DNA of 36,972 bases from Candidatus Finniella inopinata (lineage in GTDB: Bacteria; Pseudomonadota; Alphaproteobacteria; Paracaedibacterales; CAITNM01), in NCBI GenBank assembly GCA_943322985.2, contig CALPGA020000010.1:1-36972 (forward strand). Reading direction: 5' to 3'. Of this stretch, positions 3,726-5,685 are shown one piece after another; within the stretch, counting starts at the first letter, position 1; each line of letters opens with the position of its first letter. The position numbers were made by a program, and so were the translations under genes. A model generated the notes under the pieces. It was given only the letters and a program-made list of their open reading frames with translations, made no database searches and was not told where the DNA came from.

Positions 3726-4808
3726 ATGACAACATATCGCGTCATTGGTTGTATGACTGGCACATCATGTGATGGGCTAGACCTGGCATATATAGAAACC
3801 AATGGCGCAGATACACTAACTTTTGGCCCATCAGAAACTATTCCGTTTCCTACTGAATACAGCAATTTTTTGCGTGAGCGAATAAACCTTAGAGCACCTG
3901 TTCATTTTATGGATAGTGAGCTATCTAAAACCATTGCTAATTTTCACGTACAATACATAGAAGAATTCATGATTAATAATCAACTAACTGTTGATGCTAT
4001 TGGTTTCCATGGGCAAGCAGTTTGGCATGATCCCGCTAACCAGTTAACGGTGCAATTAGGTGATTGTCAGCACCTTGCAAACTCAACTGGCATAAAGGTT
4101 ATCGGGCAAGTTCGTCAAAACGATATTAAAAATGGAGGTCAAGGCGCACCGCTTGTGCCGATATATCATTTGGCATTAGCGTCTAAGCTAGAAAAGCCAA
4201 CGGCATTTTTAAACATTGGTGGTGTTTCAAACATAACATTTATTAATGCTGATGAAACTCTTATCGCTGGAGATACTGGCCCTGGAAATGCGTTGATTGA
4301 TGATTGGGTTATAAAGCACGCAGGAACGCCTCAAGATACGGATGGTCAATATGCAGCGCAAGGCATTGTTAATAATGACCTTCTAAACAAATGGTTGCAG
4401 CATCCATTTTTCGACCTGCCCTACCCTAAATCCTTAGACCGTATGGAATTTCATCAGGTACTAAACGACTGCGGTGAATTATCGCTTGAAGACGGTGCAG
4501 CAACCCTAACCCAATTTACTGTCGAATCTATCATAAAAGGCATAAGCTTACTCCCAGAACAACCAAATCAATTAATTGTGTGTGGAGGTGGTTGCCATAA
4601 CCCAGTGTTGATAAGCTGGTTACAGAAAAAATTTGCAAATGTGAAAAAAGCATCTGAAATCGGCTTGAATCCAGATGCTATTGAAGCTCAATTAATGGGA
4701 TATCTTGCAGCACGATTTTTTGAAAATCTGCCCTCAAGCTTTGAAACTACTACAGGCGTAAAACAACCCACAATTGCCGGAGAGTTATTTCTTCCTGAAT
4801 GTGTCTAA
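3726..4808 (+). CDS. anmK: Anhydro-N-acetylmuramic acid kinase
   Basis: A 360-aa protein that opens and phosphorylates 1,6-anhydro-MurNAc to MurNAc-6-phosphate in cytosolic peptidoglycan recycling. The N-terminal family signature GCMTGTSCDGLD is at residues 8-19. FHGQAVWH lies near 98, IGGVSNITF near 165, and the catalytic Asp sits in AGDTGPGNALID (Asp183). The nucleotide-binding VCGGGCHNP is near 286. The length matches the family (about 360-370). The ribosome-binding site is weak. Its last 24 bases overlap the 3' end of the convergent sspB gene. Confidence 0.97.
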   Translation: MTTYRVIGCMTGTSCDGLDLAYIETNGADTLTFGPSETIPFPTEYSNFLRERINLRAPVHFMDSELSKTIANFHVQYIEEFMINNQLTVDAIGFHGQAVWHDPANQLTVQLGDCQHLANSTGIKVIGQVRQNDIKNGGQGAPLVPIYHLALASKLEKPTAFLNIGGVSNITFINADETLIAGDTGPGNALIDDWVIKHAGTPQDTDGQYAAQGIVNNDLLNKWLQHPFFDLPYPKSLDRMEFHQVLNDCGELSLEDGAATLTQFTVESIIKGISLLPEQPNQLIVCGGGCHNPVLISWLQKKFANVKKASEIGLNPDAIEAQLMGYLAARFFENLPSSFETTTGVKQPTIAGELFLPECV

Positions 4809-5267
4809 AGTTACAACATTTGAGCCATCTTTAGGAATCTCAGCGATTTTATCTTTAGGCGCTTTGTCACCCTTAATTGTTTTGCCAACAACTTCTTCAG
4901 GGGCATCTTCAAAAATTGGACTAAATTGCAGGCCAAATTTAACCGAAGGATCCACAAAGCTTAAAAGCGCAGCGTAAGGCACATAAAGCTTTTCATGGTT
5001 ATCATCAAAGCATAACGTAACAGAAAAGCCATTTTCATCAGCTGCTAAGTCCCAAAATTCATATTGCAAGACAATGGTAACTTCATCACCGTATTGATCA
5101 CGTAAATAGTCAGGAACCTCAACACCAGGGTGCTCAGTAGCAAAAGTTATATAGTAATGGTGATCGCCTGGCAAACCATTTTTTACCGTATAAGACATGG
5201 TTTTATAAACAACTTCACGCAAAGCTATTTGTACCATTGCTTCGTAATCTAATGGGTCTTGTGCCAC
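4785..5267 (-). CDS. sspB: ClpXP adaptor SspB (alphaproteobacterial type)
   Basis: The chosen start is GTG at 5267-5265, giving 160 aa (VAQDPLDYEAMVQ). It is preceded by GGAG at 5280-5277 with a 9-base spacer, and this N-terminus fits the family. A longer in-frame reading from 5333 has no such support. Family features include LPGDHHYYITF, the YLRDQYGDEVTIVLQYEFWD block and VDPSVKFGLQF, which build the substrate-binding beta-sandwich. The C-terminal VVTLDTFRKK resembles the ClpX-docking tail. SspB tethers ssrA-tagged proteins to ClpX. It sits directly downstream of the tmRNA gene on the same strand, and its leader contains two overlapping hairpins. Confidence 0.93.
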   Translation of the reverse strand: MAQDPLDYEAMVQIALREVVYKTMSYTVKNGLPGDHHYYITFATEHPGVEVPDYLRDQYGDEVTIVLQYEFWDLAADENGFSVTLCFDDNHEKLYVPYAALLSFVDPSVKFGLQFSPIFEDAPEEVVGKTIKGDKAPKDKIAEIPKDGSNVVTLDTFRKK

Positions 5268-5286
5268 GGTCGTATTCTCCTTAAGT

Positions 5287-5331
5287 CCACTACTAAATAG
5301 TGGGGGATATTCTGTTGCAAGGCTACCCCCC
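5287..5331 (-). promoter_or_regulatory. Overlapping hairpins in the sspB leader
   Basis: Between the tmRNA and sspB the minus strand can form GGGGG/CCCCC (5327-5331 with 5302-5306, long loop) or CCACTA/TAGTGG (5298-5303 with 5287-5292). The two stems share bases 5302-5303, so they are mutually exclusive. No U-run follows, so this is not an ordinary terminator. It may be a processing signal or leader control of sspB. This is inference only. Confidence 0.3.
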
Positions 5332-5344
5332 AAGCCCCTAAGTA

Positions 5345-5637
5345 GTTACTGCTTCAACAAACAGGGTTTGTTTAGGCAGCGATAGCCACAGCAGCTTGAC
5401 GACGATTGCGGTTAGCAACGTTCAAGTTACGGTTAGCTACTACTCTACGAGTGCGATTCAATCTGCCACTTGTAATGTTTAGTCCGATAACGACGGTACC
5501 ATGCCGAGCGAAAGACCTATCTTTACCACGCGTGTCGATCCTATGTCGCCCCCATAAAAATGGTGGAGGCGCCGGGTACCGCCCCCGGGTCCACTACGCC
5601 TATTCCATAAACCGTTTATCGCTATAGATGCAAGCAT
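5345..5637 (-). ncRNA. ssrA: Two-piece (permuted) tmRNA
   Basis: tmRNA rescues stalled ribosomes and adds a degradation tag. The gene is circularly permuted as in alphaproteobacteria: the acceptor piece comes first (about 5637-5561) and ends in CGCCTCC-A-CCA (CCA at 5563-5561). After a 7-nt spacer the coding piece starts with GGGGGCG at 5553. The two ends pair over 7 bp, including the diagnostic third G-U pair, which fixes both boundaries. GGACCCGGGGGC is the T-arm region and GATCGACA follows the 5' end as in other tmRNAs. The tag reading frame is 5437-5375 with TAA at 5374-5372, then a hairpin AACAAAC/GTTTGTT. The far 3' end near 5345 is approximate. The predicted transcription start from the upstream promoter coincides with the acceptor 5' end. 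Confidence 0.93.
5372..5437 (-). other. tmRNA tag reading frame, 21 codons with duplicated ANRN
   Basis: Resume codon GCT (5437-5435) is preceded by TAGTA, matching the UAGU context upstream of resume codons in other tmRNAs. The tag reads ANRNLNV-ANRNRRQ-AAVAIAA and then stops. The Ala-Ala end and hydrophobic Val-Ala-Ile are standard ClpXP signals. The tag is longer than the roughly 10-16 residues usual in alphaproteobacteria because an ANRN-starting heptad occurs twice, 21 nt apart. Confidence 0.85.
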
Positions 5638-5644
5638 CACTTTA

Positions 5645-5672
5645 AATATAGTAGCTTCTGTAAATATTTCAA
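5645..5672 (-). promoter_or_regulatory. ssrA promoter
   Basis: On the minus strand TTGAAA (5672-5667), a 16-bp spacer and TATATT (5650-5645) predict a start near 5638, exactly at the inferred 5' end of the tmRNA acceptor piece. Confidence 0.6.
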
Positions 5673-5685
5673 GGATTTGATTGAA

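Follow-up and report, generated by a model that had tools for sequence, protein, structure and literature searches.

A long, usually repeat-bearing tmRNA tag across an order of host-associated Alphaproteobacteria, with an order-specific substitution in its SspB adaptor

Introduction

The closest described system to the locus analyzed here is that of other Alphaproteobacteria, in which a canonical tmRNA tag of 10 to 13 amino acids (aa) (ANDNxxxxxLAA) goes with the adaptor SspB-alpha. Mollicute tags are long (27 aa in Mesoplasma florum); they are read by Lon, and are not known to involve SspB or to have repeated AN-N units. In a 2025 tmRNA database paper the modal tag length is 10 aa, with extremes of 2 aa (PMC11915505); parts of that paper contain no discussion of long or repeated tags.

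In Escherichia coli, the resume codon lies 12 nucleotides (nt) from pseudoknot 1, and A86, the equivalent of an A at position −4 relative to that codon, is essential (PMC2481249). E. coli ssrA degrons have also been engineered (DAS+4, AANDENYSENYALAA, and AANDENYAANDENY) so that the SspB motif lies apart from, or is doubled before, the ClpX-binding end. In DAS+4 tags, four inserted residues separate the SspB site from the ClpX site (PMC8138137). The tandem tag AANDENYAANDENY bound E. coli SspB with no significant change in KD, and a longer sequence before ALAA improved degradation by ClpXP without SspB (PMC8512704).

Here we describe the tmRNA gene in a stretch of 36,972 nt (the window) from Candidatus Finniella inopinata (contig CALPGA020000010.1), which GTDB assigns to the Paracaedibacterales (the order). 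The tmRNAs of the order have in common with the canonical system the permuted gene, the resume context, the AN-N motif, the C-terminal AA, and the adjacent sspB, but their tags have 18 to 59 aa and usually carry repeated AN(S/R/N)N-R units without Asp. In placing the SspB motif apart from, or doubled before, the ClpX-binding end they resemble the engineered E. coli degrons; those, however, are laboratory designs, whereas the tags of the order are natural, variable, and clade-wide. With the M. florum tag they share a natural origin and a length well over 20 residues. Our literature search found no paper on Holosporales tags; the genes may already sit in tmRNA databases, including that of PMC11915505.

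Results

The window matched the Rfam family alpha_tmRNA (RF01849) at positions 5299 to 5676 with 206.3 bits (gathering threshold, 50). The match covered the full model (1 to 355) and the tRNA-like halves are permuted, which places the gene in this family; the tmRNA_permuted model (RF04321) also matched, with 127.5 bits. The genome (1.4 Mb, 47 contigs, 99.5% complete) encodes both SmpB and ClpX. Table 1 gives the parts of the locus. The intervening segment is just 7 nt long, whereas that of the Rfam consensus has about 28 nt.

TABLE 1 Features of the ssrA-sspB locus in the window
Feature	Positions	Strand	Basis
ssrA, permuted (two-piece) alphaproteobacterial tmRNA	5281..5653	−	ARAGORN tmRNA call and Rfam
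3′ side of tRNA-like domain with CCA end, encoded first; ends ...GGCGCCTCCACCA	5561..5623	−	RF04321 alignment, sequence
Intervening segment TTTTTAT, between CCA and 5′ acceptor strand GGGGGCG	5554..5560	−	Sequence; boundaries inferred from acceptor-stem pairing
CGTTATCGG, taken as 3′ strand of pseudoknot 1, anchor for resume codon	5484..5492	−	Class-wide conservation
Upstream context of resume codon, tacaagt (A at −4, T at −1)	5468..5474	−	Comparative
Tag frame with stop, GRLNRTRRVVANRNLNVANRNRRQAAVAIAA-stop; probable resume codon GGC at 5467-5465	5372..5467	−	ARAGORN and comparative anchoring
GRLN, possible degenerate third unit at tag N terminus	5456..5467	−	Inference from relatives
First ANRN heptad, ANRNLNV	5417..5437	−	Sequence; homologous position in relatives
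Second ANRN heptad, ANRNRRQ	5396..5416	−	Sequence
C-terminal end AAVAIAA, ClpX-type degron	5375..5395	−	C-terminal AA conservation
sspB (SspB-alpha adaptor), GTG start, ClpX-docking-like tail NVVTLDTFRKK	4785..5267	−	PF04386, 2qaz, alignment
Codon of SspB Glu70	5058..5060	−	Order-specific Glu

At one end of the window (positions 1 to 162) an 18-bp repeat, TTGCATCAGCTTTCTTTT, occurs nine times. Its minus strand codes for KKKADA-type repeats, and the array adjoins DNA that encodes an acidic stretch.

An earlier note, made from the letters of the window, had described the tag as a duplicated ANRN heptad. This part stood: inside the tmRNA gene the minus strand from 5437 to 5372 reads ANRNLNV-ANRNRRQ-AAVAIAA-stop, the two GCT codons (5437-5435 and 5416-5414) are 21 nt apart, and Arg takes the place of a usually acidic residue (D in 45 of 46 canonical short AN tags). 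The start and the length given in the note were not confirmed, and the note had missed that the gene is permuted, that the tag is longer, and that the pattern is order-wide.

To locate the resume codon, we aligned the tmRNAs of relatives on the conserved CGTTATCGG motif. The set consisted of 89 tmRNAs, 38 from the order and 51 from elsewhere; six sites were corrected by hand, and class sequences that could not be anchored were excluded. In all 89 the resume codon is 14 to 17 nt past the motif, and an A is at −4 in 85 (38/38 in the order and 47/51 in the others). The window has tacaagt-GGC at the expected alpha_tmRNA position, 16 nt behind the motif and with the A at −4. At the equivalent site a relative with a short tag (L020) has tacaagt-GCC AAC GAC AAC, and in several families of the order the resume codon is GTC or GGC. 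From these comparisons, translation in the window probably resumes at GGC 5467-5465, not at GCT 5437. The tag would then have 31 residues, GRLNRTRRVV-ANRNLNV-ANRNRRQ-AAVAIAA, about 2.5 times the alphaproteobacterial norm; ARAGORN calls the identical tag.

The note had taken GCT 5437 as the resume codon on the strength of the UAGUA before it. Resumption there would yield a tag of 21 residues and leave the preceding 30 nt as an untranslated insert. GTAGTA-GCT does resemble the E. coli UAGUC-GCA, and it has an A at −4. However, this GCT is 46 nt from the CGTTATCGG motif, an A at −4 precedes just 24 of 52 internal units, the window's tacaagt-GGC matches the canonical tacaagt-GCC, and no premature stop interrupts the frame that begins at the conserved site in any of the 38 tags of the order. 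We consider a start at GCT 5437 highly unlikely. That both ANxN copies are translated, as the note proposed, is supported by relatives whose first ANxN is at the conserved resume site, e.g., Candidatus Odyssella thessalonicensis L13 (ANRNFAFANSNSQVAVAA). A sequencing error in the tag, which the note had raised against itself, is unlikely because a congener (G008) has exactly the same first 25 nt of the tag.

The tag of the window thus differs from the canonical one in having 31 residues, in starting with GRLN, and in having no ANDN, but it ends in AIAA, and a C-terminal AA is present in 86 of the 89 tags (36/38 in the order and 50/51 in the others). In three relatives (L053, L071, and L061) the place of GRLN is held by ANLN, ANNM, and GNVN, respectively. 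The second ANRN heptad starts 14 residues before the C terminus. This is also the median for the last unit in the order and is close to the whole length of a canonical tag, so the long tag looks like a tag of canonical length with an N-terminal extension.

Among 42 genomes of the order, 38 had a match; one cut-off match was excluded, and one genome (G020) was counted with two genes. All 38 tags have 18 to 59 aa (median, 34.5), and none is back at 10 to 13 aa. Outside the order 47 of 51 tags have 10 to 13 residues and the other four have 25 to 40. The tags of the order are two to five times longer than those of related bacteria. Frame 0 has no stop in 1,284 codons, versus 66 stops in frame +1 and 130 in frame +2, and with shuffled bases only 7.5 of the 38 tags would be expected to be open. 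ANxN occurs 56 times, versus 5.8 expected in shuffled tags (maximum of 14 in 2,000 shuffles), and is written with mixed synonymous codons (GCT/GCA/GCC/GCG and AAC/AAT). At least two NxN units are present in 27 of the 38 tags, spaced mostly 7 to 16 residues apart; units occur in seven of the eight families, although counts within the order are not independent because the genomes are related. The remaining family (f4) has no ANxN; its tags of 52 and 59 aa (L050 in G013 and L057 in G020) are the longest here, and the second tmRNA gene of G020 (L056) has a 34-aa tag.

The motif has also changed in composition. Where ANDN has Asp, D is found in 0 of 66 motifs of the order, S, R, and N being its most frequent replacements, and the following residue is R in 37 of 66. 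Net charge ranges from 0 to +11 in the order versus −3 to +1 in canonical tags. In alignments blind to frame, and therefore noisy, substitutions at the three codon positions were 209:256:320, a bias that is small but in the right direction and that suggests modest selection on the residues; internal gap lengths in these alignments were not informative. That the extra sequence is RNA structure instead of coding is scarcely credible: the tag regions fold slightly better than shuffled ones, but the z-scores (−1.0 to −1.6) are weak, all 38 are open in frame 0 and not in +1 or +2, and ANxN is enriched at the protein level.

A genome search based on SspB placed the order in the Holosporales. Long tags are encoded by Odyssella L13 and by Candidatus Paracaedibacter symbiosus PRA9 (ANSNKGKAINSNRHFGAVAAAA), and metagenome-assembled genomes (MAGs) labeled Finniella and Paracaedibacteraceae also fall within the order. 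Because the L13 and PRA9 records are not labeled as MAGs, the long tags are not binning artifacts. MAGs of Caedibacter sp. likewise have long tags (29 and 28 aa), as do three further Holosporales (30 to 35 aa, read by eye from the sequence). In the SspB tree, of which we made only a quick version, the long-tag lineages cluster, and long tags may have had a single origin. One relative, G088 (L074/L142), combines a 12-aa tag of the canonical type, ANDNARVVAQAA, with an unusually long open frame for SspB (307 aa).

The note had suggested SspB as a reader of the tag, which gains plausibility from the sspB gene directly downstream of ssrA. Its product belongs to the SspB-alpha family (PF04386, 124.8 bits; Caulobacter SspB structure 2qaz, E = 1.6e-30), and its C-terminal tail is conserved and is a candidate ClpX-docking segment. 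sspB adjoins ssrA in loci of the order; this same-strand arrangement is widespread in the Alphaproteobacteria and is no special trait of the order.

At position 70 of SspB, Glu is found in 36/36 members of the order and Gln in 46/54 other alphaproteobacterial SspBs; in other Holosporales both Glu/Asp70 and Gln70 are present. From work on other SspB proteins, we take this residue to be near the tag groove. A profile comparison to map it onto the E. coli groove gave a weak match (probability, 31%), and the AlphaFold model of the protein has a mean pLDDT of 72.9. Among bacteria with short tags, all three with Glu70 carry an Arg in the tag, at residue 5 or 6, and column 70 was the best of 44 SspB columns when compared with these tag residues (P = 0.009 uncorrected; not significant when corrected). 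The link between residue 70 and the tag, which rests largely on one clade, is only suggestive; the change from Gln70 to Glu probably accompanied the shift of the motif away from Asp and toward Arg. Tag charge was not correlated with overall SspB charge (rho = −0.21, P = 0.20).

The tags diverge rapidly between close relatives. In two congeners (G006 and G007; L043 and L044) the SspB residues are 96% identical, the sspB genes 95%, and the tmRNAs upstream of the tag 98%, but the tags are 37% identical. The window and G003 (L040) have SspBs that are 96% identical and tags that are 45% identical. Upstream of the tag their tmRNAs are 98% identical, and their sspB genes are 87% identical; the tag has been largely replaced. 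Where two SspBs are 70 to 80% identical, the corresponding tags have a median identity of 56% in the order (25 pairs), versus 100% identity in short-tag bacteria (5 pairs). Two types of tag in the window's genus cut across the SspB tree. Because most of the genomes are MAGs, mosaic assembly at the conserved flanks may lie behind some of these differences. A search elsewhere in the genus for spare tag copies that could be donors gave no matches beyond chance level. No phage or plasmid record covered 80% of the tmRNA query; the plasmid matches were partial and came from other alphaproteobacteria.

Discussion

Judged from the sequences, the order has a long, basic, usually repeat-bearing, and fast-evolving tmRNA tag, together with an order-specific substitution in the adaptor. 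The gene form, the resume position, and the open frame are conserved, repeated modules occur order-wide, and SspB is retained with its Glu70. We lean toward a reading in which SspB docks on ANxN modules and the C terminus that follows them is an ordinary ClpX-type end. Stalled ribosomes would resume at GGC 5467 and extend the unfinished protein by a basic tail, presumably unstructured. In the window this tail would run from a variable N-terminal part through two intact ANRN modules to the ordinary ...AIAA degron. SspB would bind far ahead of the C terminus, on one of the ANxN modules, while ClpX engages the C-terminal AA, so that adaptor and unfoldase could hold the tail simultaneously. Extra length and copies would provide reach and several docking registers and need not bind both SspB subunits.

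The main rival is neutral growth, by which tags in small host-associated genomes under relaxed selection lengthened by in-frame duplication and slippage, with the repeats as duplication remnants and only the open frame and C-terminal AA kept. The hypervariability of the tags, the variable spacing of units, the f4 tags without ANxN, and the modest third-position bias are all as expected from drift. However, ANxN is about 10-fold above chance and is written with mixed synonymous codons, no tag of the order has shrunk to canonical length, and the window's genome retains intact SspB, SmpB, and ClpX. Neutral growth is possible but, in our view, unlikely.

Diversifying selection or frequent exchange might also keep the hypervariable tag changing, as a swappable degron cassette within an otherwise conserved RNA gene, in a conflict with, e.g., phage or host factors able to read or mimic it; the two tag types that cut across the SspB tree would fit, but we consider this quite unlikely.

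The note had proposed that doubling raises affinity for SspB or lets one tag bind both SspB subunits. Most tags have two or more units, and SspB is dimeric (PMC8138137), but simple doubling of affinity is disfavored because E. coli SspB did not bind the engineered tandem tag more tightly (PMC8512704) and because the spacing between units is variable. We regard a bivalent or avidity tag as very doubtful. Reach with multiple registers is preferred over bivalency because of the better degradation with longer sequences before ALAA (PMC8512704) and the insert in DAS+4 (PMC8138137).

tmRNA tags are usually treated as short and conserved, and here a whole order departs from that picture. Its members are host-associated bacteria, symbionts of amoebae included, and their natural tags amount to many repeats of the tandem and extended degron experiment that was designed in E. 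coli. Odyssella and Paracaedibacter make the effects of extra SspB sites or of reach on delivery to ClpXP testable. The tags and SspBs of the order may also furnish an orthogonal SspB/degron pair for engineering, and they bear on the coevolution of adaptor and tag and on what permits a degron to change rapidly.
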